The notes beneath the pieces were generated by a model. That model did no database searches and had not been told where the DNA came from. It saw nothing but the letters and a program-made list of their open reading frames with translations. Of a DNA stretch of 64,000 nt, positions 2,236-63,703 are shown one piece after another (positions within the stretch are counted from its first letter, which is position 1; each line of letters opens with the position of its first letter). Source of the stretch: Rubripirellula reticaptiva (GTDB lineage Bacteria > Planctomycetota > Planctomycetia > Pirellulales > Pirellulaceae); assembly GCF_007860175.1 (NCBI RefSeq), contig NZ_SJPX01000001.1:248001-312000 (forward strand), read 5' to 3'. The translations under genes and the position numbers were made by a program.

Positions 2236-3028
2236 TACTTGGAACACCGAGCACGAAGGCCGACTTTCCGCGATGACCGAGGTCGCAACGGCCGCCGGCA
2301 AACACACGCTGAAGTACTTTCGCAGCGACAGCTTGGTCATTGACGCCAAATCCGACGAGTCGCCGGTCACGATCGCGGACCGCGAAGCCGAACAATTGGT
2401 TCGCAAGCTGATCACGGCAAAATTCCCAACCGACACGGTGCAAGGTGAAGAGTTCGCCGAACAGACGGGCACCAGCCGCTATCGATGGGTCGTCGATCCC
2501 ATCGATGGCACCAAGTCGTTTGTATGCGGCGTGCCGCTTTATTCAACGCTGCTTGCCTTGGAATGGGACGGCAAGCCGCTGGGCGGCGTGATCTTCATCC
2601 CGGCCACCGGCGAGATCATTGTGGCCGCGACAGGGCAGGGCAGTTGGTTCAAAAACAGCGAAGCCGACGACTGGAACCGAGCCGCCGTTTCAAAAAAAGC
2701 AGACATCGCCGAAGCCGTTTTTGTGGTCAGCCAAGTCGACTCGTTCGCCAACCGCGGTGCCGCCGACGCGTATTTGAATCTCGAAAAAGCATCATGGTTG
2801 ACTCGTTCCTGGGGCGACGGCTACGGCTATCTGATGGTCGCGACCGGACGTGCGGACATCATGGTGGACCCGATTTGCAATGCTTGGGACGTGGCCGCGA
2901 TCCTGCCGATCATCCTCGAAGCGGGCGGGAAATTTACGGACTGGGCAGGAATCGAAACCTGCCGCGGCGGTGACGGAGTGGGCACAAACGGACGGCTACA
3001 CGATGCTGTCATGAAAATACTGTCTTAA
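2219..3028 (+). CDS. hisN: Histidinol-phosphatase of the inositol monophosphatase family
   Basis: Predicted to dephosphorylate L-histidinol phosphate in histidine synthesis; a broader inositol-phosphatase activity is possible. The 269-residue protein has the metal-binding signatures of the FIG superfamily: GEE (76-78), DPIDGTKSF (93-101) and NAWDVAAILPIILEAGG near the C-terminus. The WGDGYGY segment resembles the WGDCYGY of HisN-type enzymes, which favours histidinol-phosphatase over generic SuhB. The ATG lies inside the end of lspA, and I see no strong Shine-Dalgarno, so translational coupling is likely. A later in-frame ATG (MTEVATAAG, 18 codons in) would also keep the fold. Confidence 0.85.
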   Translation: MTQHPDTWNTEHEGRLSAMTEVATAAGKHTLKYFRSDSLVIDAKSDESPVTIADREAEQLVRKLITAKFPTDTVQGEEFAEQTGTSRYRWVVDPIDGTKSFVCGVPLYSTLLALEWDGKPLGGVIFIPATGEIIVAATGQGSWFKNSEADDWNRAAVSKKADIAEAVFVVSQVDSFANRGAADAYLNLEKASWLTRSWGDGYGYLMVATGRADIMVDPICNAWDVAAILPIILEAGGKFTDWAGIETCRGGDGVGTNGRLHDAVMKILS

Positions 3029-3052
3029 AAATCTAGGCTTAGCCAAGATTTT
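3028..3052 (+). terminator. Hairpin after hisN
   Basis: The stop region of hisN runs into a stem: AAAATCT pairs with AGATTTT, and GGC pairs with GCC around a TTA loop, with one A-A mismatch between. The descending arm ends in TTTT. It fits an intrinsic terminator separating hisN from the flagellar genes. Confidence 0.5.
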
Positions 3053-3154
3053 CGCTCAAGTGCACGTCGCCTTCGGCCGACGGTTGCCCTTCCATCGACG
3101 ACCACGATTTTCCTAAGCTCCAGCCACAGACATTTTCTTTGTCGACGGAGCGAC

Positions 3155-4015
3155 GTGGTTTTGTTTCAGTTCTGCCGAATAGCGATACTTTTTACACTGC
3201 TGTTTACCAGCAGTCAGTCGCTGCGCGGACAAGACACGCGATCCAGTCAAGACACACAGCCCAGTTCCGACGCACCTACGATTATCTCGCGATCGCCGGT
3301 CACCGTGCCAGCCAACACGCTGGACATGTTGGCCGGCGGTCCCGAAAAATGGACCAGCCCCGAAGGCATGGCCAGCAGCCTGCAAGTGCTATTGTTGTTG
3401 ACCGTGATCAGCATGGCGCCGGCGATCCTGTTGATGACGACCTGCTATGTGCGCATCATCATCGTGCTGGGACTACTGCGCCAAGCGATCGGTTTGCAAT
3501 CGCTGCCGCCTAGCCAAGTGATGACCAGCATTGCGTTGTTCATGACCTTATTCGTGATGACGCCGGTGTGGACCCAGGTCTACGAAACGGCCGTCAAACC
3601 TTACACCGATCCCGATACACCAATGACGCTGGAAGAAGCGTACGAGGCAGGCGCGCTTCCGATTCGCGAATTCATGTCACGTCAGATCGACATGGCTGGC
3701 AACCAAGACGACGTGTTGCTGTTTTATGGCTACATGGACTCCGAAGCTGAACTGCCCACCGGCTATGAAGAAGTCCCGATTCGCGTGTTGTTGCCGGCCT
3801 ACATCCTGAGCGAACTGAAGACATCGTTCTTGATGGGATTCCAAATCTACTTGCCGTTCCTGATCGTTGACCTGGTTGTCGCCAGTGTCACGATCTCGAT
3901 GGGCATGCTGATGCTGCCGCCGCAAGTGATCTCGCTGCCGTTCAAGCTGCTGCTGTTCGTTCTAGTCGATGGCTGGCACCTAGTCGTCAAAATGTTGATG
4001 GACAGCTTTGGATGA
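3155..4015 (+). CDS. fliP: Flagellar export-gate protein FliP
   Basis: Membrane subunit of the flagellar type III export gate. The 286-residue protein starts with a cleavable-looking signal (MVLFQFCRIAILFTLLF) and a polar linker. The conserved FliP core follows: a hydrophobic LLLLTVISMAPAILLMTTCY, then RIIIVLGLLRQAIGLQSLPP, MTSIALFMTLFVMTPVW, and C-terminal membrane helices containing FLMGFQIYLPFLIVDLVVAS and MLMLPPQVISLPFKLLLFV. The start is GTG with GGAG about six bases upstream. It heads the fliP-fliQ-fliR-flhB set; no fliO or fliN is visible upstream. Confidence 0.95.
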   Translation: MVLFQFCRIAILFTLLFTSSQSLRGQDTRSSQDTQPSSDAPTIISRSPVTVPANTLDMLAGGPEKWTSPEGMASSLQVLLLLTVISMAPAILLMTTCYVRIIIVLGLLRQAIGLQSLPPSQVMTSIALFMTLFVMTPVWTQVYETAVKPYTDPDTPMTLEEAYEAGALPIREFMSRQIDMAGNQDDVLLFYGYMDSEAELPTGYEEVPIRVLLPAYILSELKTSFLMGFQIYLPFLIVDLVVASVTISMGMLMLPPQVISLPFKLLLFVLVDGWHLVVKMLMDSFG

Positions 4016-4059
4016 GAGTAGGAAACAGGTGACGGGTGAGAGGACGATACAACGCCACC

Positions 4060-4213: not shown

Positions 4214-4230
4214 TACTAAGACCAACTCTC

Positions 4231-5300: not shown

Positions 5301-5308
5301 GCTAAACC

Positions 5309-6474: not shown

Positions 6475-6969
6475 CTAGCCTACGATTTCGCGGACGACTT
6501 TTCGGATGCGCGGTGGCATGATGTAACGCGGGTTGCCCGAATCGTCGTCGCCCGCGTCTTCGGCAAGCTTCAAGAATCGGATATCGAAGCGGTTTTCGAG
6601 TTTGGCGAAAATCGCTTTCGTCGAGCGCATCTTGTTCGGCGGCAACGAAAGAGCTTGATCGAACTCGGCCAACGACCGTGGCGTTTGATCCAGACTCGCG
6701 ATGCCCGATATGAATCGCCAGACACCGCGCTTGCTGATTCGATTGAGCTTCTGTTTCAGCGGCAGCCCGGCCGGTCCGTCCTTCTCTTTTTCGTCGTCTT
6801 GCTGACCTCGCTGGCGATGGCCACCGTTGCCAGGCCGGCAACCGCCGCCACCTCCACCAGGCCCTTCGGGCAGGGGATCGACTCCGGCGCGGCGAAGTCG
6901 TCCGCTTAGCTGGCGAAGTCCGCGCTGGCAGTCGCCGACGTCATCAAGATTGATCATTAAGTAAGGCAT
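6475..6969 (-). CDS. Hypothetical protein with Gly-rich linker
   Basis: I do not recognise this 164-residue protein. It begins MPYLMINLDDVGDCQRGLRQ. A low-complexity Gly-rich and charged segment occupies about residues 40-70. The C-terminal half is mixed helical (SLAEFDQALSLPPNKMRSTK, FAKLENRFDIRFLKLAEDAG), ending basic (PPRIRKVVREIVG). An upstream in-frame ATG twelve codons earlier is possible, but MPYLMINLDD looks like a natural start. It is convergent with flhB and divergent from leuA. The ordered C-terminus suggests a real gene, but no function can be inferred. Confidence 0.6.
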   Translation of the reverse strand: MPYLMINLDDVGDCQRGLRQLSGRLRRAGVDPLPEGPGGGGGGCRPGNGGHRQRGQQDDEKEKDGPAGLPLKQKLNRISKRGVWRFISGIASLDQTPRSLAEFDQALSLPPNKMRSTKAIFAKLENRFDIRFLKLAEDAGDDDSGNPRYIMPPRIRKVVREIVG

Positions 6970-7397: not shown

Positions 7398-8975
7398 ATG
7401 TCGCAAACTACGACGACCACCGAAAGTGATGCACCTGCATCGGGCAATCAAGAACCACGCATGATTCGTATCTTTGATACGACCCTGCGCGATGGCGAGC
7501 AGTCGCCGGGCGCGAGCATGAACTTGGCCGAGAAGCTTGAGGTCGCACAACTCTTGGAATCCATGGGTGTTGACATCATCGAAGCCGGGTTTCCGATCGC
7601 ATCACCGGGTGACTTCGAAGCCGTCAAAGCGATTGCGTCAACGATTCACCAATCGACCGTTTGTGGGCTGGCTCGTTGCAGCGACAAAGACATCGACGCG
7701 GCATGGGAAGCGGTCAAGGGTGCCCGCAACTCGCGGATCCACGTCTTCTTGGCGACCAGTGCCATTCACCGCGAATTCAAACTGCGGATGTCGACGGATG
7801 AAATCGTCGAGCGAGCGGTTGCCGGCGTCAAACGTGCCAAGGCCTACTGTGACGATGTGGAATTTTCACCCGAAGACGCCTGCCGCACCGAGCACGACTT
7901 CTTGTGCCGAGTCGTCGAAGCCGCCATTGATGCGGGCGCGACCACGATCAACGTGCCCGACACCGTTGGCTACGCGACACCAAGTGAAATTTTCGATCGC
8001 TTCACAATGCTGCGAAATCGGGTACCCAATATGGACAAAGCCGTGCTGAGCACTCACTGTCACGATGACCTGGGGATGGCGGTCGCCAACAGCATGGCTG
8101 CCGTTGCCGCCGGTGCTGGCCAAATCGAATGCACGATCAACGGGATCGGCGAGCGAGCGGGCAACGCGGCACTGGAAGAAGTCGTAATGGCGATGAAGAC
8201 TCGCAAAGACTTTTTCAATTGCACGACGCGTATCGACAGCACGCGACTCGTTCCGGCAAGCCGCCTGGTCAGCAAAACCACCGGCATCCAGGTGCAACGC
8301 AACAAAGCCATCGTTGGTCGTAACGCGTTCGCGCACGAATCGGGGATTCATCAAGACGGAATGCTGAAGGAACGCAGCACCTACGAAATCATGTCCCCCG
8401 AAGAAGTTGGTTTTTCCAAAACCGACTTGGTGTTGGGCAAACACAGCGGCCGAGCAGCTTTGGCCGATCGCGCCAAGACGCTCGGTTACACGTTGACCGC
8501 CGAACAACTCAACATCGTGTTCGAACAGTTCAAAGTTCTGGCCGACAAAAAGAAAGAGATGTACGACGGCGACATCGTTGCCTTGGTCCAGCAACAAATC
8601 AGCGGCAGCGTTGAGGAGCAATGGAGTCTTGTCGACTATGTCGTCAGCAGCGGAAAGGGCAGGGGACCGCAAGTCGAATTGACTCTTAGCAACGGCGACG
8701 AACAATTCAGTGAAAAAGTCGAGCAGGGCGACGGACCAATCGACGCAGCGTTTTGGGCGGTGGAAAAGATCACGGGCGTCGACGTTGTCTGCAAAGACTT
8801 TCGCGTACGCAGTGCCACGCTTGGCAGCGATGCGATTGGCGAAGTCAACCTCGAAGTCGACCACAAGGGCCGCACTTACCGAGGCGTCGGGTCCAGCACG
8901 GATACGGTCGAAAGCACGATCCTGGCGATGCTAAACGCGATCAACCGAATCATCGCTGATCGCCCCAAGAGCTAA
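7398..8975 (+). CDS. leuA: 2-isopropylmalate synthase
   Basis: First committed enzyme of leucine synthesis; it condenses acetyl-CoA with 2-oxoisovalerate. The 525-residue protein has the DRE-TIM signature RIFDTTLRDGEQSPGASM near residue 25, the metal-binding HCHDDLGMAVANS, GIGERAGNAALEEVVMA, and the AHESGIHQDGML stretch of the linker. A C-terminal LeuA dimerisation/allosteric domain follows (from about residue 400, QISGSVEEQWSLVDYVVSSG). The length and allosteric domain match LeuA type 1 rather than homocitrate synthase. The gene stands alone, with leuCDB not nearby. A leucine leader peptide and terminator precede it, so attenuation by leucine supply is likely. Confidence 0.95.
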   Translation: MSQTTTTTESDAPASGNQEPRMIRIFDTTLRDGEQSPGASMNLAEKLEVAQLLESMGVDIIEAGFPIASPGDFEAVKAIASTIHQSTVCGLARCSDKDIDAAWEAVKGARNSRIHVFLATSAIHREFKLRMSTDEIVERAVAGVKRAKAYCDDVEFSPEDACRTEHDFLCRVVEAAIDAGATTINVPDTVGYATPSEIFDRFTMLRNRVPNMDKAVLSTHCHDDLGMAVANSMAAVAAGAGQIECTINGIGERAGNAALEEVVMAMKTRKDFFNCTTRIDSTRLVPASRLVSKTTGIQVQRNKAIVGRNAFAHESGIHQDGMLKERSTYEIMSPEEVGFSKTDLVLGKHSGRAALADRAKTLGYTLTAEQLNIVFEQFKVLADKKKEMYDGDIVALVQQQISGSVEEQWSLVDYVVSSGKGRGPQVELTLSNGDEQFSEKVEQGDGPIDAAFWAVEKITGVDVVCKDFRVRSATLGSDAIGEVNLEVDHKGRTYRGVGSSTDTVESTILAMLNAINRIIADRPKS

Positions 8976-11399: not shown

Positions 11400-11705
11400 G
11401 GCAGCAGGCTATCAGCGTCGAGTGGAATTAGAGTGGGAAGCTAGCAATGGATCGTACGCCAATCGACGCAGGTTGTGTCGACGGGCACCCGATAAGATAG
11501 TCGCTTGGTTGGCCCCAATCATCGGCATCAAGCCTCGGTAAAAACGAAAATCGGGGCAGGGCGGGGCGATTGTGACGGGACAGAACCCCAACGACGCCCC
11601 AAATGAGTCGAAAAATCCTAACCCTTTCAGTTGGCGCTGCGCTACAATGGATCGGTCGCCTGCTCGACGTTTCCCGGTCACTACCCGACAGAGTCGCCAA
11701 AGATC
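11400..11705. other. Divergent intergenic region upstream of htrA
   Basis: About 300 bp between the start of the isomerase-like gene (minus) and the chosen start of the protease (plus). Promoters for both should be here, but I cannot pick them with confidence. It contains one plus-strand GGGCAGGG (11554-11561). A TTG start at 11631, in frame with the protease, would extend it into this region, but the added residues do not look conserved. Confidence 0.5.
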
Positions 11706-45104: not shown

Positions 45105-46346
45105 ATGATTCCCGACGTTCCCTCCATGCACATTCGCACCTTTCGAGCAGCCAGCTTGCAAGACGCCTTGGAACAGATCCGTCACCAGATGGGACCGGAC
45201 GCATCGGTGCTGCACACGCGGCAAGTGCGAGACGGTTGGATGGGCTGGCTCGGGCGCACTTATGTTGAAGTCACGGCCGGACTGCGTGACGGCGAATCAG
45301 CCGCTGCCAAAGCAGGCAACCCCGCCGATGCGATCGATTCGCGGCACGCCTCGACCAACCATCCGCACCCACCGCGAAACACACCATCACACGGCAACTC
45401 GGCTAGTCCGATTCGCATCGCCGACCACGCCTACGACTTTAGCGACGCAGCGGCGAGAAACGACCGGGGCAGGGAAGGGTACTTGTCAAATTCAGCGTCA
45501 CTTCCAATTTCGCTGCAATCGTATCGCGAGGAACTGATCAGCGCGGGTGTCGGATCTTCAACGGCAGACCGATGGCTAACCGCAACCGCCAGCTTTGCAG
45601 CCGGACTTGGCGATGCACCGGGCGGCCAATTCGTTTCGGGCACGCCATGGATGGAACACCTTCAGCGGACAATCGGACGCGAACTACGAATCGGCAGCCC
45701 GATTCTGACCCAACCTGGCGACCGCCGAATCGTTGCTCTCGTTGGACCGACTGGCGTTGGCAAAACCACCACCGTCGCCAAGTTGGCGGCTGGTTTTCGA
45801 ATCGAAGCACGCCGGCGAGTCGGTTTGCTGACGATCGACACATTCCGAATCGCAGCAGTCCAGCAACTAAAGGCTTACGCCGAGATCATGGACCTACCGA
45901 TGGAAGTCGTCGAAAACGAAAGCCAGATGCAACCGGCATTGGACCGACTCGGCGATGTTGACTTGGTCCTGATTGACACTGCTGGACGAAGTCCCCGCAG
46001 CGACGCGAGAATCGACCAATTGGTCGGCATGCTTCACAGCGCACAACCCGACGAAACTCACTTGGTGCTTAGCAGCAACAGCTCCGCCAGCGTGATCCGA
46101 TCAACGCTTGATGGGTTTGCACCAGTCCAACCGACCTCGGCCATTCTAACCAAGCTTGACGAGACGCCGCACACCGCAGGCGTGTTGTCGGCAATTGCAG
46201 CGAGCGATCGCTTCGCCGGCATACCGCTTAGCTACGTCACCAACGGACAACAAGTCCCCGACGATATCGCCATCGCCGAACCGGAATACTTGTTGTCACG
46301 GTTGCTGCCGGCGCGAATGACATTATCGCAAATCGAAGCGGCCTAA
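45105..46346 (+). CDS. flhF: Flagellar SRP-like GTPase FlhF
   Basis: GTPase that sets flagellum position and number in polarly flagellated bacteria. The 413-residue protein has an N-terminal B domain (HIRTFRAASLQDALEQIRHQ), a linker, an N domain, and an SRP-type G domain: VALVGPTGVGKTTTVAKLAA (about 211-230), LLTIDTFRIAAVQQLKAYAE, LVLIDTAGRSPRSD, and ILTKLDETPHTAG. A second ATG eight codons downstream (MHIRTFRAAS) is the more natural FlhF start. It follows flhA on the same strand. The flhG (MinD-like) partner, commonly next, is not found here. Confidence 0.93.
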   Translation: MIPDVPSMHIRTFRAASLQDALEQIRHQMGPDASVLHTRQVRDGWMGWLGRTYVEVTAGLRDGESAAAKAGNPADAIDSRHASTNHPHPPRNTPSHGNSASPIRIADHAYDFSDAAARNDRGREGYLSNSASLPISLQSYREELISAGVGSSTADRWLTATASFAAGLGDAPGGQFVSGTPWMEHLQRTIGRELRIGSPILTQPGDRRIVALVGPTGVGKTTTVAKLAAGFRIEARRRVGLLTIDTFRIAAVQQLKAYAEIMDLPMEVVENESQMQPALDRLGDVDLVLIDTAGRSPRSDARIDQLVGMLHSAQPDETHLVLSSNSSASVIRSTLDGFAPVQPTSAILTKLDETPHTAGVLSAIAASDRFAGIPLSYVTNGQQVPDDIAIAEPEYLLSRLLPARMTLSQIEAA

Positions 46347-48956: not shown

Positions 48957-49171
48957 GCCGCGATTGTAGACGCAGCGAACCTAGATCCCAAGAAGGTAGC
49001 CTTGTCTAATCTCGCCCCGACTAGATCAACTCAAAAAAATCTGCTTTGATCTCGACGCAGGGCAGGGTGAACTGCCCAAAGAGAGAATTCCTAGAGCGGT
49101 CGCGATCACGCAAGAAAGCAATTAACATGGCGGTAACGTTCACGTTTTAGCGTCCCTCTCATCGATGCCCC

Positions 49172-49742: not shown

Positions 49743-50918
49743 TTGCGAATCGCTCACGTCATCACTCGAATGATCATTGGCGGCGCGCAAGAAAACACGC
49801 TGCTGAATTGCTTGGATTTGGTTCGCGACTACGGTGACGACGTTCTTTTGATCACAGGTCCTTCGGTTGGTCCCGAAGGAGACTTGCTTAGCCAGGGCAG
49901 AGCAGGGGACTTACCAGTTCGAATCCTGCCCAATTTGCTGCGTTCGATTCACCCTAGTCGTGACTGGGCGGCCAGTCGTTCGATCCGCCAAGCGATTCGC
50001 GAATTCAAACCTGACGTTGTCCATACTCATAGCGCAAAAGGTGGAATGCTTGGCCGATATGTGGCTTGGGATGAACAAGTCCCTGCGGTTATCCACTCGG
50101 TTCACGGCGCTCCGTTCCATCCCTATCAATCCGCGGTCGCAAGAGAGTTCTTTCGGCGCTGTGAAAAATGGGCGGCGAAACATTGTCACCGGATGATCAG
50201 TGTTGCAGACGCAATGACCGACCTGATGGTCAAAGCAAATGTCGCGCCGCGCGAAAAATTCCAAACCATTTACAGCGGCATGGATGTCGAACCATTCGTC
50301 CACGCCAACGATCACCGTGATGCCGTGCGTCAAAAATGGGGTTTTGAAAACCATCATGTTGTCATCGGCAAGATTGCTCGACTATTTCACCTGAAAGGGC
50401 ACGACGACTTGGTAACCGCAGCGGCGGAAGTGGTCGGCCAAAATGCCAACGTTCGCTTCCTATTGGTCGGCGATGGAATTTTACGGCCCAGTTTGAAAAA
50501 GCGAATCGACGAACTCGGGCTAACGCATCACTTCGTCTTCACAGGCCTGGTACCTCCAACTGAGGTCCCGTCTCTGATCGGTGCCATGGACGTGCTGGTC
50601 CATACGTCATACCGCGAAGGGCTGGCTCGAGCCCTGCCGCAAGCCTTGATTGCCGGAAAGCCAATCGTCAGCTACGACGTCGACGGGGCCAGAGAAGTCA
50701 CCATCGACGATCTGACCGGATTCTTGATCCCAGCCCAGGACACGGGCCAACTGGCCCGTTCGCTGGTCCAACTTGCCGGCGACGAACCAATGAGGCGTCG
50801 GATGGGCAGGGAAGGGCAGTCGCGTTTTACCGACCAATTTCGGCATCAAACGATGACCAAAGAAATTCGACACCTGTACGGGGAGGTTCTGGCGAGCAAA
50901 TCGCCAAGACCCGTCTGA
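49743..50918 (+). CDS. Glycosyltransferase, GT4 family
   Basis: A 391-residue GT-B fold enzyme beginning at TTG with RIAHVITRMIIGGAQENTLL, the typical GT4 N-terminal G-G-A-x-x. Further motifs are VVHTHSAKGGMLGRYVAW, VIHSVHGAPF, and in the C-terminal half VIGKIARLFHLKGHDDLVTA, FLLVGDGILRPSLKKRIDEL, and MDVLVHTSYREGLARALPQA. It probably acts in exopolysaccharide or lipid glycosylation. It is alone between the AT-hook gene and a kinase. The QGRAGD segment lies on a degenerate GGGCAGAG motif, and MGREGQ on a KOPS-like motif (50804-50811). Confidence 0.9.
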   Translation: MRIAHVITRMIIGGAQENTLLNCLDLVRDYGDDVLLITGPSVGPEGDLLSQGRAGDLPVRILPNLLRSIHPSRDWAASRSIRQAIREFKPDVVHTHSAKGGMLGRYVAWDEQVPAVIHSVHGAPFHPYQSAVAREFFRRCEKWAAKHCHRMISVADAMTDLMVKANVAPREKFQTIYSGMDVEPFVHANDHRDAVRQKWGFENHHVVIGKIARLFHLKGHDDLVTAAAEVVGQNANVRFLLVGDGILRPSLKKRIDELGLTHHFVFTGLVPPTEVPSLIGAMDVLVHTSYREGLARALPQALIAGKPIVSYDVDGAREVTIDDLTGFLIPAQDTGQLARSLVQLAGDEPMRRRMGREGQSRFTDQFRHQTMTKEIRHLYGEVLASKSPRPV

Positions 50919-51021: not shown

Positions 51022-51987
51022 ATGTCGAAATCACGCGACTTTCTCGGCCCCTATCGGCTCGCCCGCTTGATCCGTGGCGGCAGCACTGCTGAAGTCTGGG
51101 AAGCGATCGACGAGAACACCCAAGAACGATTCGCTTTGAAAGTGCTGCGTGAAAGCAAAGCCGACAAAGCCGAAATCGCGTTGTTGAAACATGAGTACAC
51201 CGTCGCGAAAGACTTGGCCAGTCCGCGAATCATTAAGGTGATTGACATGCGTGAGGACAATGGCCGCACGTACTTAGTGCTTGAACTGTTCAGCGAACTG
51301 AACATGAAGCAAGCATTGCGTCGCGGACCAGAATCTCTTGCTTTCATGCTTGGCAAAATTGTTGAGCAATCTGCCGAGGGACTCTACTACATGCACACTA
51401 AGAATTGGCTTCACCTTGATATCAAGCCTGATAACTTTCTGGTCAGCCGCGAAGGTGTTGTGAAGCTGATTGACTTCACGATCTCACAAAAGAAAAAAAC
51501 AGGACTTAGCAAATTATTTCATAGTGAAAAAGTTGCTAAAGGCACTCGCAGTTATATGGCTCCGGAACAGATTCGCCGCAAAGTTTGCGACGAACGCACC
51601 GACATCTATTCATTTGGATGCGTCCTATATGAACTGGTGACCGGCAAACCACCATTCACCGGCGACACACCAAACGACCTGCTTAATAAACACCTAACCG
51701 CCTCGATCCCAAGCCCAATCGTCCATAACGACAATGTGACACGAGAATTCGCGGACTTGGTCAAAAGCATGATGGCCAAAAAACCCGATAGCCGGCCGCC
51801 GTCGATGTGGGAGTTTTTAAAGGTGTTGCGAGGCATTGAAATTTTCAACAAGCGACCTCGAAAACCAAAGATAAGTGTTTTCGACAACATGCCAGGCATC
51901 AAAGGCGCCGAAGACATGCTGTTAAAAGATCGCGGGCTCGAAGACGATGATGATGACGAAGATCAACAAGTAACGGAGGGTCGATAA
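51022..51987 (+). CDS. Ser/Thr protein kinase with atypical HLD and DFT motifs, coupled to accA
   Basis: A 321-residue cytoplasmic kinase without a transmembrane helix. It has the glycine loop LIRGGSTAEVWEA, Lys40 in FALKVL, Glu in ALLKHEYTVAKDL, HLDIKPDNFLV at 131-141 (the usual HRD lacks its Arg), LIDFTISQ at 149-156 (DFG with Thr for Gly), GTRSYMAPEQIR, and DIYSFGCVLYELVTG. The essential Lys and both Asp residues are present, so activity is plausible but probably not activation-loop regulated as in RD kinases. The acidic tail ends at a stop that overlaps the accA ATG, so the two are translated together. Confidence 0.9.
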   Translation: MSKSRDFLGPYRLARLIRGGSTAEVWEAIDENTQERFALKVLRESKADKAEIALLKHEYTVAKDLASPRIIKVIDMREDNGRTYLVLELFSELNMKQALRRGPESLAFMLGKIVEQSAEGLYYMHTKNWLHLDIKPDNFLVSREGVVKLIDFTISQKKKTGLSKLFHSEKVAKGTRSYMAPEQIRRKVCDERTDIYSFGCVLYELVTGKPPFTGDTPNDLLNKHLTASIPSPIVHNDNVTREFADLVKSMMAKKPDSRPPSMWEFLKVLRGIEIFNKRPRKPKISVFDNMPGIKGAEDMLLKDRGLEDDDDDEDQQVTEGR

Positions 51988-52952
51988 TGAGTGGCGGTCC
52001 CGGATTAGAATTTGAATCGAACATTGCAGTACTTGAAGAACAAATTGCGCAGCTCGAACGACGCACCGATCGCACCGACGAAATCGAAGTCGAAATGCGA
52101 GGGCTGCGTTTGGAACTGGTCAAACAGCTTCGCGAAACGTACAGCTCGCTGAACGCGTGGCAGACCGTTCAAGTTTCGCGGCACAAGAACCGCCCGTACA
52201 CACGCGACTATCTGAATTTGGCGTTCGACGAGTTCGTCGAATTGCACGGCGACAAACACTTCGGCGACGACCGCGCGATGCTTTCGGGCTTTGCCAAACT
52301 GGATCGGTTCAAGGTCATGGTGCTCGGTCACCAGAAAGGTCGCACATACAAAGAACGCGCCGCCTGCCACTTCGGATGCGCTCATCCCGAAGGCTACCGC
52401 AAGGCGATGATCCGAATGCGGATCGCCGAGAAGTACAAACTGCCGCTGATCTGTTTTATCGACACACCCGGTGCGTACCCGGGAATCGGCGCAGAAGAAC
52501 GTGGCCAGGCCCAAGTGATTGCCGAGAGCATGTTCATGATGAGCCGACTGAAAACACCGGTCATTTGCGTCGTCATCGGCGAAGGCGGATCGGGTGGCGC
52601 GCTGGGCATCGGCGTGGGCGATCGAGTGGCCGTTTTGGAGCACGCTTACTACAGCGTCATCAGCCCGGAAGGGTGCGCCGGAATCCTGTGGAAGAGCCAC
52701 GAGCACGCACCCAAAGCGGCGGCGGCTTTGAGGTTCACCAGCGGCGATCTGAAGCGGCTTGGCGTGGTCGACGATGTGCTCGAAGAACCACTCGGCGGCG
52801 CCCACCGCGACCATCACCAAATGGCGTCACGGTTGAAAACTTATCTGTCGCGAACACTGTCGGAACTTGAGCAGAAGAGTGACAAAGAACTCGTCGACGA
52901 GCGCTACGAAAAGTTCCGCCGCATCGGCGTCTTCATGGAACAAGCCGTCTGA
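51987..52952 (+). CDS. accA: Acetyl-CoA carboxylase carboxyltransferase subunit alpha
   Basis: One of two carboxyltransferase subunits that make malonyl-CoA, the first step of fatty-acid synthesis. The 321-residue protein starts with the coiled-coil LEEQIAQLERRTD, then YTRDYLNLAFDEFVELHGDK, and the crotonase-fold core: GAYPGIGAEERGQAQVIAES, VVIGEGGSGGALGIGVGDRV, and YSVISPEGCAGILWKSHEHA. GGAGG lies a few bases before the ATG, which overlaps the kinase stop as TAATG. The kinase upstream may act on AccA or simply share its transcript (inference). No accD, accB or accC is adjacent. Confidence 0.96.
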   Translation: MSGGPGLEFESNIAVLEEQIAQLERRTDRTDEIEVEMRGLRLELVKQLRETYSSLNAWQTVQVSRHKNRPYTRDYLNLAFDEFVELHGDKHFGDDRAMLSGFAKLDRFKVMVLGHQKGRTYKERAACHFGCAHPEGYRKAMIRMRIAEKYKLPLICFIDTPGAYPGIGAEERGQAQVIAESMFMMSRLKTPVICVVIGEGGSGGALGIGVGDRVAVLEHAYYSVISPEGCAGILWKSHEHAPKAAAALRFTSGDLKRLGVVDDVLEEPLGGAHRDHHQMASRLKTYLSRTLSELEQKSDKELVDERYEKFRRIGVFMEQAV

Positions 52953-52963: not shown

Positions 52964-53320
52964 CAAACGGCTGGGAAGAGCGTCATCCACGGGCGATTCC
53001 AAACCGCCCCGCAACGTCCGATAATGCCTCTTATGTTGTATTGCAGGTACGGTTTTCCCCGTATCTGGCGTGATTTTGCTTTTCGAGCCGCCCACTGCAC
53101 CGACCCATGGCGATGGCGAGCCTACACGGCGGCTCGCACGCCAATCATTTGCGAATCCAGAACACCAAGTGTTCGCCCTTTGAACAGCCGCGTCACAACT
53201 GTTCGCCAAATTTTGAGCCGAGCCTGCGCCCGCACACATTCGCCAAACCGATCAGCAAACAGACAGATTCTGCTCGCTTGATTCAGTGCATCAATCGCAA
53301 ACCGAGACCCGCCCAACGCA
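52953..53320. other. Intergenic region with the dif-like site
   Basis: 368 bp between the convergent accA and cvpA stops. Apart from the hairpin at its left edge and the dif-like sequence at 53014-53041, I see no ORF with protein-like composition and no further repeats. Confidence 0.6.
53014..53041 (+). other. dif: Candidate dif site (XerC/XerD recombination site)
   Basis: A 28-bp sequence in the dif layout: XerC-like arm ACGTCCGATAA, 6-bp centre TGCCTC, XerD-like arm TTATGTTGTAT. The right arm matches the E. coli XerD arm TTATGTTAAAT at nine of eleven positions. The inner ATAA...TTAT symmetry is typical of dif. The left arm is less like E. coli, as usual for this arm. It is intergenic, lies between convergent genes, and falls within the interval where the KOPS-like motif reverses strand. 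That agreement is what raises it above a chance match. Confidence 0.7.
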
Positions 53321-54004
53321 TCAACGTTGGTATGATCCGTTGATCGATTGCCGAGCCTGTTGAGTGTTCCAAGCGGGTGCTGCGGCGGGCGGTTGCCAGG
53401 GGGCGGATTCGACAAAACCGGCGGCCGCTTGGCCGAGCCCACCGATCGGACGAACTTCGCCGCTAGCGATGTTCGATCGGGCTGACTCGGCTTCGTGGAA
53501 TTGCTGCTCGAATCGATCCAGGTACGGACCGATCACTTCGTGGATTTCCGGCGGGATCACAGATTGGCTTTGGTCAAGAACTTTAGCGATATAAATCCCG
53601 CTTTTGCTTTGCACGACTTTTTCGCGAACTTGCTGACCCGCCAACGTGACAGCGAACATCGTGATCAAGGTGCAGTACAGCGATCCCTTCAACAACCCGA
53701 ACACAGCGCCGATGTGATTGTCGAACTCCTTCAATTTCATCCGATCGATCGAACTGCTGATCATCCGAAACGCAACCCAGATCAGCAGCGACGTTCCGAT
53801 GAACAGAATCAACATCGCCAAGAACTGGTTCCACGGCGGCTCGACACTGATCGATCGTCCGAATGGCTCGCGCAGCTTCAAAGCCACAAAATAGCTTCCC
53901 AAGATCGAAGCGATCGAGGCAAGTTGCCAAGCAAGTCCTTTGACGGCGCCGAACAACATCGCGCCAATCAAAACGACCAACATCACAATGTCGTAGATCT
54001 CCAT
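53321..54004 (-). CDS. CvpA family membrane protein
   Basis: A 227-residue protein of the CvpA (colicin V production) family. The N-terminus MEIYDIVMLVVLIGAMLFGA is followed by VKGLAWQLASIASILGSYFV, the conserved G-x-x-x-G-x-x-x-Q pattern, and two further helices (FLAMLILFIGTSLLIWVAFR, and AVFGLLKGSLYCTLITMFAV). The C-terminal 80 residues are polar. CvpA proteins are inner-membrane proteins linked to envelope function, with no known enzyme activity. A start three codons upstream (MYLMEIYD) is also possible. Convergent with accA across the dif-like region. Confidence 0.82.
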   Translation of the reverse strand: MEIYDIVMLVVLIGAMLFGAVKGLAWQLASIASILGSYFVALKLREPFGRSISVEPPWNQFLAMLILFIGTSLLIWVAFRMISSSIDRMKLKEFDNHIGAVFGLLKGSLYCTLITMFAVTLAGQQVREKVVQSKSGIYIAKVLDQSQSVIPPEIHEVIGPYLDRFEQQFHEAESARSNIASGEVRPIGGLGQAAAGFVESAPWQPPAAAPAWNTQQARQSINGSYQR

Positions 54005-54272
54005 CAAATACATCCATGAAGGTAGGGAGAGAGCGGTGGGGGCGTGGCAAGAGGCCAGTGGAGAATGAGCGAAAATGAGGGAAGGGTGTTGATAGCAAAA
54101 AATCTGCGATCGGCACTCAGTCGGACTATAGCGATCGGCAGCATCGGATCGAATACCAATCCGACAACTCATCCGCAGCACGTTGCGCTAGCGTTGAGTC
54201 CCACAAAAAGACTATCTACGTAGGAGTCCGGAAGTTCCCCGTCCACTCCCCTGCCCTGGCTTGCTTACCCGA

Positions 54273-55001: not shown

Positions 55002-55447
55002 ACCAACGGCGATCGGTCCAATACAATCGTTACGGGACCATCGTTCACTAACGAAACTTTCATGTCGGCAGCAAAAACACCTAGCTCGACCTTGATACCA
55101 CGCTGAGCAATCGTAGCCGCATAGAGTTGATAGAGTCGCTTTGCGATTGGAGGATCGGCGGCATCGGTGAACGAGGGTCGCCGGCCTTTTCGGCAATCTG
55201 CCAGCAATGTGAATTGGCTAACCGCTAGGACTGCGCCGCCAATGTCCTCGACCGACTGGTTCATTTTTCCATGTCGGTCTTCAAAGATACGAAGCCCACA
55301 TGTCTTATCGGCCAGCCAACGGACCTCGTCTTCGCCATCGCCCTGCCCTACCCCTACCAACGCCAACAAACCTTGCTGGATCTGGCCAACCACCTCACCA
55401 TCCACTCGCACAATCGCCTCGGCAACTCGCTGCAACACGACTCTCAT
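54998..55447 (-). CDS. dtd: D-aminoacyl-tRNA deacylase
   Basis: Removes D-amino acids mischarged on tRNA. At 149 residues it has normal Dtd size. It begins [20 protein letters not shown], then [40 protein letters not shown] (the S-Q-F-T-L motif), and [15 protein letters not shown] (the N-x-G-P-V-T motif); the two motifs form the active site. The ATG was taken over a longer frame because conserved Dtd begins with M-R-x-V-x-Q. It shares its stop region with the YdjM-like gene. Confidence 0.95.
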
Positions 55448-55567: not shown

Positions 55568-56482
55568 ATGCCATTTCTGTTCACCTGTCCCGAATGCAAT
55601 ACGAAGACCCAGGTCGACGATCGATTCAGCGGACTGGCTGGACAGTGCGTGACGTGCGGCGCAGCGATTGTAATGCCAAAATTCGCAACCCAGTCCCCTG
55701 CCCTGCCCTCGCCACAGAACGTACCAACCAAACGAAATTTCGGTTGGCTGGCGGCCGTGCTGGTAACCGTCTTACTCGTCGGCAGCTTGTTGTTTGCAGC
55801 TATTCGATTTGGCGGCCAAACGATGTCGACGCTTGCCACCAGCCGAGAACAAACGGCATCCATTCGCAACCTGGAAAAGATCGCAGCCGCGATGGCGGCT
55901 TATGCAGCAGACCATGGAACGTATCCGCCACCGATGATCCGCGACGCAAAGCAACAACCGATGCATTCCTGGCGAGTACTGTTGTTGCCCTATCTCGGCG
56001 AAGACGAACTGTACAACCGCTTCAATCTTCAATTGCCATGGGACCATCCGGCCAACCGAAACGCGGCCGACTTTGGTATGCCGAAGGTGTACCAACACCC
56101 CTCGGCGATTGCCAATGGACTCTATGGACAGTCAAGCTATTTCTTAGTGACCGGCCCGGGAACCCTGTTTCCGACCCAAGGCGCGTTGGGACCGTCCGAC
56201 ATCACCGATGATCCCTCCCAAACGATCTTGATAACCGAAGCGGTTTTCAATTCGCCCTCGTCACTTTGGACCGAACCGATCGACCTCGACATCATCCGGA
56301 TGCAAGGCAACGTTGGCAGTGGCTTTGGAAACGAACCGGGCGGATTGACAGCCGGCGGCGTGGCAGTCGTAACCACTGATGGACGCGGTCACTTCATACC
56401 GGACACAATCGATCCGGCGATTTTCAGAGCTTTAGTGACGCCGCAAGGCGGCGAACGACTCGCCGATGACCTGCTTGACTGA
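55568..56482 (+). CDS. DUF1559 protein with zinc-ribbon N-terminus
   Basis: A 304-residue protein. The N-terminal CPECNTKTQ and CVTCGAAI form a C-x2-C...C-x2-C zinc ribbon. One transmembrane helix is at about 58-78 (FGWLAAVLVTVLLVGSLLFA). The DUF1559 part has NLEKIAAAMAAYAADHGTYP, SWRVLLLPYLGEDELYNRFN, and NRNAADFGMPKVYQ, with the late TAGGVAVVTTDGRGHFIP. In typical planctomycete DUF1559 proteins a pilin-like N-terminal cleavage motif precedes the helix; here the ribbon is there instead. Function unknown. Divergent from dtd. Confidence 0.85.
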   Translation: MPFLFTCPECNTKTQVDDRFSGLAGQCVTCGAAIVMPKFATQSPALPSPQNVPTKRNFGWLAAVLVTVLLVGSLLFAAIRFGGQTMSTLATSREQTASIRNLEKIAAAMAAYAADHGTYPPPMIRDAKQQPMHSWRVLLLPYLGEDELYNRFNLQLPWDHPANRNAADFGMPKVYQHPSAIANGLYGQSSYFLVTGPGTLFPTQGALGPSDITDDPSQTILITEAVFNSPSSLWTEPIDLDIIRMQGNVGSGFGNEPGGLTAGGVAVVTTDGRGHFIPDTIDPAIFRALVTPQGGERLADDLLD

Positions 56483-58081: not shown

Positions 58082-60019
58082 CTATTCTTCGATCGCAGCA
58101 AACGGCGAAGTAAGCACCGAAATCAACGTCGATAAAACGCGAAACTCACCAGCTCGTGTTTGCCATGCTGGCGTACCATTGGCATTACCGATCATCCAAT
58201 CGGTTTCTTTCAAGACGACGTAGGCAATCTCGTCTTTGAACTCTTGCGGCATCGTTCCGGAACAGAACAGCAGGTCGTACTTGTCAATCAAAGTGACTAA
58301 GTTACTAACGGCTGCCTCGGAACGCTGGATTGCCTCCCAAGCCGCATCGGTCAAGTTTCCTTTATTGGTCAGATCGTCTTCGTTGACCAGCGCACGGTCG
58401 GCATCCAAGTTGAATGTCAGATTACATTCCATGTTGTAAACGGATCCGTTGCTGGCAGTGAACCTTGCCCCACCGCGATTCAGATCGCCGATGTACCGGT
58501 TGACCAAACGGTTTGCCGTTACAGCTGTCATCTGCTGGAACTCGGGCGCTACCAAGTTCCCGTTCGGAATTCGCCGCGATGGCTGGAACCCGATCAAGTC
58601 ACCCGGTGGTTGGAAACCCGGCAAGAAAAAGCTAAAGACGCTAGGCGACTTATAGGGCTCTTGTGTCCAGTCATAATCACGCGGCGTCACCATCGCATAA
58701 CCATTGGCATAGTCGCTTGTCGCTTCTAAGCCACGCATCAAAGACGTGTAACGAATCACCGGCTCACGCAATCGGGAATACTCAGTCCCACGCGTAGCAA
58801 CGTCGACTCGATTCGGACTTCGCAGCACTCGGACACGAACCGAACGCCAGGCTTCAGGATCGATCAAAATAGCTTTAACAACCGCCTTCATATCGCCTTT
58901 GACCCCCTGCCCGTTGTTGTCAAACGTCCGAGCGACTCGGCGGATGTAGGCTCGCGATGGATTACTTTTAACAAGCCGCTGAATCAACCGATACGAAATG
59001 AACGGCGCGACGTTGGCGTGATCAAATAAATCATCCAGCGCCGCCGCGATGTCGGCGTCACCATCGTCGACATCGACAACTTGCCCGCTGACCAAGGTCT
59101 TGGGTTCGGTGTCGTGTTCGTGCTGGGCCATTTCCATGGGGTACAAAAAGTCGTTGCCCGAATAAAAGACCCGATTGTTTGTGCTGGTATCACTCGGCTT
59201 GAAAGTTAGCCCCGTGAACACCCGAGCAAGTTCTTTGATCGTTTCGTTCGTGTACGTTGGAATCAGTTCGCCACTGAGAGTGGTCTTCAATCGCCCGTCG
59301 TTGTAGAGCTCATACAGACCGATCGAGAACAATTGCATGACTTCGCGAGCATAGTTTTCGTCTGGATAACGAACACCATTCGTCTTGCGATTTCGCATGT
59401 GGCTGAGATAAACCCCCATCACCGGGTGATAGGTCACATCTTGAAGTAGATCGCGGTAGTTTCCGAACGCACCGTTGACCAAAACATCGTAGTAATTTGT
59501 GACTCCGACCCAGCGGCCGACTCCCGAAAGATTACCGAGGCCGGTGTCATTAAATCCGGCTCCGTCTTCGCTGGTGACAAGAATCTGACTGAGCGCCCAG
59601 GCAACTCGCTGACGCAATTGGTCGTCGGCCTGCAGCGAAGCCGTCCACCAGGCGTGGTGCCGAAAACGCTGAATCCAAACGTTGTTCTGGCCAGACGTGA
59701 ATCCGTCGTTGGCGATCATGCTCATCATCAACGGCTGGTGCTCAGTCGCTGGCAGCGCAAATTGAGCATCGATCCATTCTTCGCACGCAGGACGAATACC
59801 GATTTGATTGATTCGGCCAGCCAAAGTATCGATGTCGGCCATCGTAGGCCCAAACGTTGCGCGATTGAGGAACTGCGCGGCAAAGACTTTACTTTTCATC
59901 AGCTTGGCAGCGATGGGACTATCGACTTCGAAAGTCCCTGCCGATGCTACCGACGAAGAAAGTGCAAGCAGACAGAGGACGGCCAGCCCTCGAGAGATCA
60001 GCGTTTGGAAACTGAACAT
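58082..60019 (-). CDS. DUF1800 family protein
   Basis: A 645-residue exported protein with a signal peptide (SFQTLISRGLAVLCLLALSS, cleavage near ASA-GT). DUF1800 features: AAQFLNRATFGPTMADIDTL, EEWIDAQFALP, RHHAWWTASLQADDQLRQRV, AWALSQILVTS, DENYAREVMQLFSIGLYELY, and SYRLIQRLVKSNPSRAYIRR. The fourth in-frame start codon was chosen because AAGG lies about eight bases before it; the GTG three codons earlier lies within that site. DUF1800 and DUF1501 form a conserved pair in planctomycetes and are co-transcribed here. Activity unknown. Confidence 0.92.
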   Translation of the reverse strand: MFSFQTLISRGLAVLCLLALSSSVASAGTFEVDSPIAAKLMKSKVFAAQFLNRATFGPTMADIDTLAGRINQIGIRPACEEWIDAQFALPATEHQPLMMSMIANDGFTSGQNNVWIQRFRHHAWWTASLQADDQLRQRVAWALSQILVTSEDGAGFNDTGLGNLSGVGRWVGVTNYYDVLVNGAFGNYRDLLQDVTYHPVMGVYLSHMRNRKTNGVRYPDENYAREVMQLFSIGLYELYNDGRLKTTLSGELIPTYTNETIKELARVFTGLTFKPSDTSTNNRVFYSGNDFLYPMEMAQHEHDTEPKTLVSGQVVDVDDGDADIAAALDDLFDHANVAPFISYRLIQRLVKSNPSRAYIRRVARTFDNNGQGVKGDMKAVVKAILIDPEAWRSVRVRVLRSPNRVDVATRGTEYSRLREPVIRYTSLMRGLEATSDYANGYAMVTPRDYDWTQEPYKSPSVFSFFLPGFQPPGDLIGFQPSRRIPNGNLVAPEFQQMTAVTANRLVNRYIGDLNRGGARFTASNGSVYNMECNLTFNLDADRALVNEDDLTNKGNLTDAAWEAIQRSEAAVSNLVTLIDKYDLLFCSGTMPQEFKDEIAYVVLKETDWMIGNANGTPAWQTRAGEFRVLSTLISVLTSPFAAIEE

Positions 60020-61862: not shown

Positions 61863-62717
61863 ATGCCTGAGCAAAACGGAATCCCCTCTGCCCTGCTTTG
61901 CCTGCTTTCCGAGGTCATCGCAGGACGCGCCACGGCGACTGATTTGGTCCATCAAATCGGCTTGTTGGCAGTCCCTGAAACAGCGACTGATGCGGCGGAT
62001 GGAACGTCCATGACAGAGATTGACGGCGCAACGGTGGACCTCGGCCGCAAGGCCCGCTGCGGATTCGGCGAAGTGATCTACGGGCCCGGGAAATCCGCTG
62101 ACCTAGTCGCAAGGCTGATCGAAACGCAATTAGAGGCTGGGCAAGACTCGTTGGTGACGCGAATCGATCCGCAGACCGCCGTTGCAGCGACCCATCGGTT
62201 TACACACGCTCGACACAACCCCGTCGCCCGAACGCTACGCGTCAGCAGTGCTCCGATTGTGTCTGGTCTGCAGCCATCCCCCAACGGTCTGCATGTCGCC
62301 GTCGTCACCGCGGGCAGCACCGATGCACCGGTCGCCGAAGAAGCGATCGAGACCATTGAGTGGATGGGAGTCCCCGTTTCTCGGTTTGACGACATTGGCG
62401 TGGCCGGCCCCCAGCGACTGATCGCGGCGGTGCCAAAACTTCGAGAAGCGTCCGCCGTTGTGGTGGTGGCCGGCATGGAGGGAGCTCTGCCGTCCGTCGT
62501 GGCCGGGCATTTGGCGGTTCCCATTTTTGCGGTCCCAACCAGCGTCGGCTACGGCGCATCGCTGGGCGGGCTGACGCCGCTGCTGGGAATGCTGTCCGCC
62601 TGCGCCGCGAACGTTGCGGTGGTCAACATCGACGCCGGATTCAAAGGCGGTTATCTGGCCGGCATGGTCGTTTCACAGTTACGTCAAGTAACACCTGATA
62701 CCTGTCAAGCAAGCTAG
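61863..62717 (+). CDS. larB: Nickel-pincer cofactor biosynthesis protein LarB
   Basis: PurE-like enzyme that carboxylates nicotinic acid adenine dinucleotide in synthesis of the nickel-pincer cofactor of lactate racemase. The 284-residue protein has the LarB N-terminal half (DLGRKARCGFGEVIYGPGKS) and the AIR-carboxylase-like C-terminal half: VAVVTAGSTDAPVAEEAIET, AVVVVAGMEGALPSVVAGHL, FAVPTSVGYGASLGGLTPLL, and NIDAGFKGGYLAGMV. larA, larC and larE are not in the window. It is followed after 30 bp by nnrD on the same strand. Confidence 0.93.
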   Translation: MPEQNGIPSALLCLLSEVIAGRATATDLVHQIGLLAVPETATDAADGTSMTEIDGATVDLGRKARCGFGEVIYGPGKSADLVARLIETQLEAGQDSLVTRIDPQTAVAATHRFTHARHNPVARTLRVSSAPIVSGLQPSPNGLHVAVVTAGSTDAPVAEEAIETIEWMGVPVSRFDDIGVAGPQRLIAAVPKLREASAVVVVAGMEGALPSVVAGHLAVPIFAVPTSVGYGASLGGLTPLLGMLSACAANVAVVNIDAGFKGGYLAGMVVSQLRQVTPDTCQAS

Positions 62718-62747
62718 ATCTTTGTCAGCCTACAAACGGACTCCTTC

Positions 62748-63641
62748 ATGCCAACACAGTCTCGCCCTCCGGTTCAGATACCTGAGCGCACCCAAGATGC
62801 GCACAAAGGCACGTTTGGCCGCGTGCTGCTCATTGGCGGTTCGCGTGGCATGAGTGGTTCAATCTCACTGTCGTCGGTGGCGACACTGAAGACAGGATCT
62901 GGCCTCGTCACCGCAGCGGTCCCCAATCGGTGCTTAGAAACGGTAGCAGCCTTCCATCCTTGCTTGATGACGATCCCGTTGCCCGACGACGACAAGGGCA
63001 CGTTTTCAGTGGAGGCATCAACGTCGGTTGCGACGCGACTCGCAAAGGTCGATGCGGTCGGCGCAGGCCCTGGAATGACGACCGGCGCCGGATCCGTGCG
63101 GATCGTCGAGCGATTGATCGCCGCATCGGGGCTGCCGCGAGTGCTAGATGCCGATGCGATCAACGTGTTGGCCGAACTGGCCTGGGCGTCGTCGGCAACT
63201 GCTGACCATACCGGACCGCTTGTGCTAACACCTCATCCAGGTGAACTCCAGCGACTGGTCGGCGTACCGGCCAAACACCGGACAGATCAAATCAATGCAG
63301 CGGAGAAACTGTCCGATCAAACAGGCGCGGTGATCGTCGTCAAAGGAGGACCAACGGTCGTGGTCGGGCTCGGCCAACGTTACACCAATTCGACGGGCAA
63401 CCCCGGCATGGCGACGGCCGGATCGGGCGACGTATTGACGGGCGTGGTCACATCTTTGCTGGGCCAAGGGCTTTCGCCGTGGGACGCAGCCCGACTTGCG
63501 GTCTGGATTCATGGGCGGGCGGGCGATTTGGCGGCCAAGTTGACCGGGCAAGCCGGATTGACTGCACTAGAGATATTGCAGTGCTTGCCGCAAGCGGTTG
63601 TGGATGCGCAGGCTAGAAGCTTTCCGGTTGACGGCGCATAA
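62748..63641 (+). CDS. nnrD: ADP-dependent NAD(P)H-hydrate dehydratase
   Basis: Repairs hydrated NAD(P)H, 297 residues, ribokinase-like fold. Features in order: GTFGRVLLIGGSRGMSGSIS, LKTGSGLVTAAVPNRCLETV, AVGAGPGMTTGAG, LDADAINVLAE, VLTPHPGELQRLVG, and the nucleotide-binding NPGMATAGSGDVLTGVVTSL, with the catalytic Asp in GSGD. It is the stand-alone dehydratase without the fused NnrE epimerase domain, which must be encoded elsewhere. It shares a strand with larB and with the riboflavin kinase gene that follows. Confidence 0.95.
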   Translation: MPTQSRPPVQIPERTQDAHKGTFGRVLLIGGSRGMSGSISLSSVATLKTGSGLVTAAVPNRCLETVAAFHPCLMTIPLPDDDKGTFSVEASTSVATRLAKVDAVGAGPGMTTGAGSVRIVERLIAASGLPRVLDADAINVLAELAWASSATADHTGPLVLTPHPGELQRLVGVPAKHRTDQINAAEKLSDQTGAVIVVKGGPTVVVGLGQRYTNSTGNPGMATAGSGDVLTGVVTSLLGQGLSPWDAARLAVWIHGRAGDLAAKLTGQAGLTALEILQCLPQAVVDAQARSFPVDGA

Positions 63642-63703
63642 TTTGTGCGGGCCAGGACTCGCCGGCCACACTCCCCTGCCCTTCACTGCAATTTGCCCTT
63701 CTC

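Follow-up and report, generated by a model that had tools for sequence, protein, structure and literature searches.

The stretch of DNA analysed here, referred to as the window, comprises 64,000 nucleotides of Rubripirellula reticaptiva (bases 248001-312000 of the 1.78-Mb contig C1, in a genome of 7.85 Mb in 13 contigs). It contains a site resembling dif, on which oriented copies of the octamer GGGCAGGG converge from both sides. The dif-like site, ACGTCCGATAA-TGCCTC-TTATGTTGTAT (11 + 6 + 11 bp; the complete 28-mer is ACGTCCGATAATGCCTCTTATGTTGTAT), is found on the plus strand at 53014..53041 in the intergenic space between accA (acetyl-CoA carboxylase carboxyltransferase alpha; 51987..52952, plus strand; PF03255, E = 5e-133) and a gene for a CvpA-like membrane protein (53321..54181, minus strand; PF02674, E = 2e-22). 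We take this 28-mer to be a dif site from its likeness to the dif of Escherichia coli, and its TTATGTT on the XerD side resembles known dif sites. The octamer fits the E. coli consensus GGGNAGGG of the FtsK-orienting polar sequences (KOPS).

In the window GGGCAGGG occurs thirteen times on the plus strand, between 2633 and 50811, and six times on the minus strand, between 54249 and 63681, with no discordant copy. Dinucleotide shuffling gives an expectation of 1.37 copies with a maximum of 6 among 100 shuffles, and the strand switch is significant (Fisher p = 3.7e-5). Left of dif, single copies on the plus strand are located at 2633..2640, 6868..6875, 8657..8664, 11554..11561, 32066..32073, 33750..33757 and 49060..49067. 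They are accompanied by overlapping doubles of the form GGGCAGGGCAGGG at 24632..24644 and 37931..37943 and of the form GGGCAGGGAAGGG at 45467..45479 and 50804..50816, the latter being the final one before dif. Past dif, on the minus strand, the nearest copy faces back to the site at 54249..54256, followed by an overlapping pair of GGGTAGGG and GGGCAGGG at 55341..55353, a double GGGCAGGGCAGGG at 55696..55708 and single copies at 58905..58912 and 63674..63681. Together with 5 variant sites the 19 copies of GGGCAGGG make up 24 sites of the consensus GGGNAGGG. A preliminary description of this DNA had counted thirteen plus and no minus copies left of 50.8 kb and six minus and no plus copies from 54.2 kb, and each copy was recovered at its place and on its strand. 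The same description had placed a KOPS convergence near 51-54 kb, and the dif-like site indeed lies inside the gap between the last plus copy (50811) and the first minus copy (54249).

The polarity extends beyond the window. In 850 kb of contig C1 that were read directly, 8-mers with at least 10 occurrences were ranked by binomial p within 100, 200 and 290 kb of dif. GGGCAGGG ranks first at every radius, with 40:1, 57:1 and 60:2 copies pointing toward and away from dif, respectively, and in the 200-kb scan it is at the top of 13,325 8-mers tested. The scan ranks and the shuffling expectation lead us to reject a chance origin of the polarity. Counted outward in 50-kb steps, the copies toward dif number 26, 14, 10, 7, 1 and 4, and those facing away 1, 0, 0, 0, 1 and 1; this rise of over-representation toward dif is a defining property of KOPS. 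Copies number 107 per Mb up to 290 kb from dif and 15 per Mb elsewhere, the 108 sites over the remaining 7.27 Mb corresponding to about the rate of the reversed control. Thus, enrichment in this genome is limited to about 200-300 kb on each side of dif. Because polarity and enrichment are restricted to these surroundings, GGGCAGGG is balanced between the strands of the genome as a whole (87 forward and 83 reverse; reversed control 55 and 65). The preliminary description had predicted that the polarity switches only here and at the origin; in this assembly of 13 contigs the motif is down to about the background rate farther than 290 kb from dif. A chromosome-wide bias, which is a trait of E. 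coli but lies outside the strict definition of KOPS, is not seen in this genome. The earlier statement that genes of both orientations carry the motif holds also at larger scale, since a simple longest-open-reading-frame gene call places the 60 copies directed toward dif within 290 kb in sense (22), antisense (25) and intergenic (13) positions. Of the overlapping doubles, 14 of the 16 copies of GGGCAGGGNAGGG in the genome are within 292 kb of dif, all 14 correctly oriented, and a control gave 0.

A further group of strand-biased 8-mers found by the scan consists of phases of ACCTGTT and is due to a single tandem array with a 7-bp unit at window position 4072-4212 (C1:252072-252212), where one 8-bp phase has 19 matches. 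Genes of the window include, according to profile matches, those for proteins with DUF1559, DUF1501 and DUF1800 domains. Together with the closest accA relatives, these domains suggest a member of the Pirellulaceae (Planctomycetota).

The dif-like site has two 11-bp arms and a 6-bp centre, is present in single copy and is located where the motifs converge. Its 20-bp core gave a single match in the 7.85 Mb at up to 3 mismatches, and the reversed control gave 2. In an alignment of 72 dif sites, including that of the window, the 28-mer itself carries 1.73 bits of information per base, whereas the upstream flank has 0.24 and the downstream flank 0.50. The search pattern dictates part of the arm columns but neither the centre nor the flanks. 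A 24-letter pattern (19 fixed bases, up to 2 mismatches) was found in 228 of 392 genomes of the phylum, with the reversed control matching 10 of 392. All 40 sampled genomes, ours and those of the same family, order or class, contain it, 36 of them once and 4 twice. Three genomes of the family f36 (G296, G270 and G340) have 20, 5 and 4 dif-like matches instead of a single one, which possibly reflects dif-borne mobile elements.

The convergence on dif was followed in 80 named loci of relatives, with accA as the anchor and dif called by a strict pattern; the closest accA relatives are Rubripirellula and Rhodopirellula (88% identity). A dif site is present in 71 of the 80 loci. In 55 of them it has the same orientation as accA and is positioned 50 bp-2 kb past it, at a median distance of about 0.16 kb, and in 16 it is inverted. 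The inverted sites, 0.5-4.7 kb past accA, are those of L082, L085, L089-L093, L097-L100, L102, L104-L106 and L121. Six of the nine loci without dif end 33 bp-4.3 kb past accA, and the other three (L064, L066 and L067) are of the Stieleria type, in whose genomes dif is more distant or on another contig. Around the 71 sites GGGCAGGG is directed toward dif 555 times and away from it 23 times, with an excess toward dif in 68 loci, the opposite in 1 and equal numbers in 2. The other forms of GGGNAGGG converge as well (A 47:13, G 87:9, T 81:5), whereas controls do not to any such degree (GGGACGGG, of the same composition, 15:11; CGGGAGGG 17:11).

The motifs converge on dif also in the 16 loci with an inverted site (166:11). 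In TBK1r and Rhodopirellula sp. SM50 dif is 12-13 kb past accA (12.3 kb in TBK1r), and their accA loci contain plus motifs only (7:0 and 9:0). In TBK1r the plus motifs continue up to dif and then give way to minus motifs, with one plus motif 1 kb past dif. The accA locus of L064, with dif on another contig, gives 7:1. The polarity switch thus follows dif where dif has moved or become inverted. In 100-kb scans GGGCAGGG took first place in TBK1r (48:2) and, with 25:2, in G177, which belongs to another family of the order. It took second place with 21:1 in G317, which belongs to a different family of the class, and with 12:0 in G349, where it is not significant after correction for 5702 tests. 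None of the 13 copies of GGGCAGGGCAGGG in the 10.8-Mb genome of TBK1r is more than 275 kb from dif; all 6 on the left are plus and all 7 on the right minus, and the control gave 1.

Over longer distances the picture varies. In SV_7m_r, a single complete chromosome of 7.107 Mb, 67 plus and 7 minus copies of GGGCAGGG are found over the 1.35 Mb left of dif, a longer reach than in our genome. Within one arm of positive GC skew of this chromosome the 67 plus copies left of dif compare with 23 among the matches listed for the 1.58 Mb to the right (p = 6e-8); completeness of the latter is inferred and agrees with the plus counts of eight samples up to 2.6 Mb. A second convergence or an inversion past about 1.39 Mb, suggested by matches listed there on the plus strand only, was considered and rejected as an artefact of the listing, since direct samples there contain minus matches. 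In 12 samples from the far field of SV_7m_r, where an axis through dif and an axis through the skew shifts make different predictions, GGGCAGGG is 12:2 and all GGGNAGGG forms are 17:9 in favour of the dif axis, which is only suggestive. Four far samples of TBK1r (9.6, 10.0, 10.5 and 0.25 Mb) hold one plus motif each, contrary to the dif axis.

The genome also encodes a possible reader of the motif. A single FtsK gamma-domain match exceeded the cut-off (E = 7.8e-25), and it is in a protein that also carries the alpha and motor domains. This gamma domain aligns with the solved FtsK gamma domains 2j5o, 2ve8/2ve9 and 2j5p, which we take to be from Pseudomonas aeruginosa and E. coli. Its recognition helix (L001; G000:C5 near 836.7 kb) reads IGYGRAAKLIDFMAE.

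The polarity, the switch at the dif-like site, the density gradient, the conservation in relatives and the presence of an FtsK gamma domain are all explained if the window is a chromosome-dimer-resolution zone in which GGGCAGGG acts as a KOPS that is read by FtsK gamma and directs the pump to dif at 53014-53041, and we regard this as very probable. FtsK, positioned at the neck of the bud, would load on KOPS by means of its gamma domain. The pump would then travel in the 5'-to-3' direction of the motif, from both sides toward dif, where the gamma domain would meet Xer recombinases and activate the crossover that converts a dimeric chromosome to two monomers. Binding of GGGCAGGG by FtsK, action of Xer proteins on the dif-like site and location of the pump at the bud neck are the parts that we infer.

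Several observations weigh against this interpretation. The E. coli gamma residues named as readers of KOPS are R1300, E1303 and E1306 (PMC2680272). In an alignment numbered by our own count they correspond to K, D and A here, although the motif is identical, and therefore KOPS binding is not guaranteed. Scans for motifs in the 850 kb read directly from our genome and in the loci of the relatives revealed no XerC or XerD candidate, no family search of genomes having been made. When reverse-complemented, one arm of the dif-like site agrees with the other at only 5 of 11 positions. Two variant sites GGGAAGGG in the window are discordant and face away from dif, at 20898..20905 (minus strand) and 54079..54086 (plus strand). 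In distant members of the phylum GGGCAGGG is unpolarised around the dif-like site (3:3 in G227 and 10:9 in G366), although in G227 the GGGNAGGG forms together are 18:3. Finally, the GC skew does not switch at dif, being -0.036 in the left part of the window and -0.037 in the right part.

This skew was followed along the chromosome. On contig C1 it is negative in all 38 bins of 20 kb from 0 to 760 kb, and the last five bins give +0.009, -0.024, -0.049, -0.022 and +0.001. The dnaA gene, identified by its DnaA_C domain, is at C1:1,042,594. Samples of 6 kb near it give -0.042 at 1.02 Mb, +0.049 at 1.06 Mb and +0.079 at 1.12 Mb, and later +0.005, -0.020 and +0.038. The distance between dif and dnaA is 742 kb, or 9.4% of the genome. 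A turn of the skew from positive to negative at a site opposite oriC, by which a replication terminus would be recognised, was not found for dif in this genome. The preliminary description had interpreted the convergence as a terminus and had named a skew extremum far from 53 kb as evidence to the contrary; with equal skew across dif and a flip near dnaA 742 kb away, that claim is not supported. The KOPS reading survives, because the support from dif, the relatives and FtsK is independent of skew, and the identity of the motif as proposed there is borne out on these grounds.

The relatives show a similar separation. In SV_7m_r, sampled at 20 places, the skew is positive from 0.1 to 3.3 Mb and negative from 3.65 to 6.85 Mb, with the AT skew opposite; dnaA is at 0.001 Mb and dif at 1.348 Mb, some 27-32% of the genome away from the skew shift. 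G349 has positive skew up to about 3.15 Mb and then negative skew in 5 of 7 samples, with dif at 1.957 Mb and dnaA at 0.001 Mb. The picture is less clean in CA13, where skew samples at 4.4 and 4.7 Mb are negative, those on both sides of dnaA (4.904 Mb) are about zero, those at 5.1, 5.4 and 5.9 Mb are positive, and the one at 6.4 Mb is -0.014; the 10 kb adjoining dif (5.762 Mb) are +0.051 on the left and -0.041 on the right. In TBK1r it is weak throughout the genome and negative on both sides of dif. The distant G227 has an ordinary layout, with dnaA at 0.001 Mb, parS and parB at 0.061 Mb and dif at 2.15 Mb in a total of 4.08 Mb, and its skew reverses sign at dif. Among the genomes examined such a sign change is clear only in G227 and weak in G317. 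Judged by nucleotide composition, the putative KOPS/dif zone is not at the compositional terminus, and the direction of the motif near dif tracks dif and not the G-rich strand; left of dif in our genome GGGCAGGG in fact occupies the G-poor strand.

Two DnaA-like genes are present per genome (C1:1042594 and C3:143274 in ours; also in SV_7m_r, TBK1r, CA13, G349 and G177). The short one, an open frame of 369-387 aa, is near the skew flip where examined (our genome, SV_7m_r, G349 and CA13). In SV_7m_r and TBK1r the distance of the longer one (466-721 aa) to parB is 0.15 and 0.25 Mb, respectively, and in CA13, G177 and G349 it is 0.6-2.7 Mb.

On the circle, dif tends to lie opposite the centromere. 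In G349 parA and parB at 5.16 Mb are accompanied by three parS sites (one exact, two with 1 mismatch); this locus and dif are 49.8% of the circle apart, and the distance between parS and dif is 47.4% in G391, 49.8% in G309 and 48.7% in G317. Positions of parB in five further genomes were predicted before the search. The distances found were 45.6% (SV_7m_r), 44.1% (G115), 42.6% (CA13), 35.5% (TBK1r) and 22.0% (G177), corresponding to errors of 4.4, 5.9, 7.4, 14.5 and 28% of the circle. The last is a clear miss and probably real, because a parS with 1 mismatch adjoins parB in G177. The mean distance between dif and parB is 42.9% of the circle in 10 genomes (p = 1e-5 versus uniform, an optimistic value since the genomes are related). 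These 10 are from 14 searched, leaving aside our own, G097 and G379, which have many contigs, and the outgroup G227; four genome lengths were rounded to 0.1 Mb, and the CA13 contig covers 8.58 of 9.5 Mb. For dif and dnaA the mean is 20.1% in 7 genomes (range 9-39%, p = 0.81), and in the 6 genomes of the class that were measured parB and dnaA are 20-47% of the circle apart. In our genome the best ParB match is on contig C5 and, as predicted, not beside dnaA on C1.

These distances could mean that chromosomes of this class have two axes, one of replication from dnaA to the compositional terminus and one of segregation from parABS to the KOPS-marked dif, the latter pair being held near 180 degrees and turning freely with respect to the replication axis, so that order in the FtsZ-less bud would be set by the centromere and FtsK rather than by the order of replication. 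We give this proposal slightly less than an even chance. It is weakened by the ParB matches in G115, G371 and G317, which are only 45-46% identical and may not be orthologues, with several weaker ones in G115; by the parS cluster of G317 (2.63 Mb), which lies apart from the best ParB match (3.19 Mb); and by the parS with 1 mismatch in G115, only 22% of the circle from dif. An exact parS is present in 12 of 35 further genomes. The consensus was absent, even with 1 mismatch allowed, from our genome, SV_7m_r and TBK1r (G000, G001 and G002), and CA13 (G003) has only one match, with 1 mismatch. A ParB-like gene is found in all four, and the lineage may use an altered parS. We conjecture that a slow-growing budding cell finishes replication before segregation, so that the order is set by the centromere and dif in place of oriC and the terminus. 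A parS that has been displaced in P. aeruginosa still separates before all other loci, but its permitted positions form a region of about 650 kb surrounding oriC, and in Vibrio cholerae and Caulobacter crescentus moves of parS by 650 and 400 kb are tolerated (PMC5098823).

In view of the above, other explanations of the polarity should be considered. As a G-rich word, GGGCAGGG might follow the leading strand, as G-rich words usually do, and its polarity would then be secondary to strand composition or to the use of codons near a switch of the skew. However, no skew switch exists at dif, sense and antisense copies are equally common (22 and 25), GGGACGGG with the same composition is unpolarised, and in each of our genome, TBK1r, G349 and G177 one arm of the motif pattern opposes the local skew. 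The skew, the sense and antisense counts and the GGGACGGG counts lead us to reject this by-product explanation, whose chance is practically negligible. It is also very improbable that the 8-mer is another oriented signal, such as a Chi-like recombination stimulator or some other architecture imparting sequence (AIMS), that faces this region by chance. The AIMS class is indeed wider than KOPS and rises toward the terminus (PMC5993296). Yet the sequence is the E. coli KOPS consensus GGGNAGGG (PMC2680272), including the tolerance at N, and the polarity turns at dif in related loci and follows dif where it has moved or become inverted.

More serious, though still unlikely, is the possibility that dif marks the true replication terminus, that replication starts opposite dif near parB, and that the GC skew is misleading, either by having another cause or by reflecting an older origin. 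The proximity of the longer DnaA-like gene to parB in SV_7m_r and TBK1r (about 0.15 and 0.25 Mb) would fit, as would the few sampled copies of GGGCAGGG in SV_7m_r that turn from minus to plus in the interval 4.4-5.4 Mb, close to parB (4.59 Mb). The same gene is far from parB in CA13 (0.6 Mb), G177 (0.9 Mb) and G349 (2.7 Mb), however, and in SV_7m_r the GC and AT skews form a square wave that flips at about 0 (dnaA) and at 3.3-3.65 Mb, half a circle apart. The skew also turns near dnaA in our genome and G349, and less sharply in CA13.

A dimer-resolution zone apart from the compositional terminus would have consequences for planctomycete cell biology. The single Planctomycetes genome in a survey of all phyla received no dif prediction (Kono et al. 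2011; PMC3025954), and a candidate is now supplied. The titles and abstract beginnings covered, with longer result lists included in part and most subscription journals outside the coverage, report neither dif, nor KOPS, nor such a layout in Planctomycetota, and the searched passages of PMC10591338, PMC11975371 and PMC7901474 mention dif and KOPS in general terms only. In the FtsZ-less Planctopirus limnophila ftsK is essential, while ftsI, ftsW and mreB are dispensable (PMC6952346, PMC10632474), and the proposed zone offers a concrete substrate for this FtsK. If true, the layout with two axes may explain why ftsK is essential in Planctopirus and other divisome genes are not. With dif and KOPS inside a skew arm, these genomes also provide a natural test case for the question whether resolving dimers and directing FtsK require a link to the end of replication.

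Oriented octamers read by the gamma domain of FtsK-family proteins are known from SpoIIIE and its recognition sequences (SRS) and from the KOPS of Lactococcus, with motif sequences that differ. The present system is closest to KOPS, FtsK gamma and XerCD-dif of E. coli, with which it shares the 8-mer consensus GGGNAGGG with C preferred, the direction of KOPS toward a 28-bp dif of 11 + 6 + 11 layout and an encoded FtsK gamma domain. Overlapping KOPS, as found here, have been used in E. coli assays (PMC2680272). The systems differ in the gamma contact residues, R1300, E1303 and E1306 in E. coli versus K, D and A in the FtsK of our genome, and in the position of dif, which is at the replichore junction in E. 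coli but, by GC skew, not here. In E. coli KOPS show their bias around the whole chromosome and are spread over it about evenly, with roughly one GGGNAGGG in 12 kb (PMC3140498), whereas here enrichment is restricted to about 200-300 kb on each side of dif. This narrow enrichment matches the size of the region of about 400 kb in which E. coli FtsK is highly active, although E. coli KOPS are equally dense elsewhere (PMC3140498). Like the dif sites predicted by Kono et al. (2011), the site described here is an intergenic 28-mer with one match in the genome. In that survey even the outliers in Proteobacteria and Firmicutes had dif within 3% of the genome from the skew shift (PMC3025954), whereas here 0.74 Mb separate dif from dnaA, and in SV_7m_r the site and the skew shift are about 27-32% of the genome apart.

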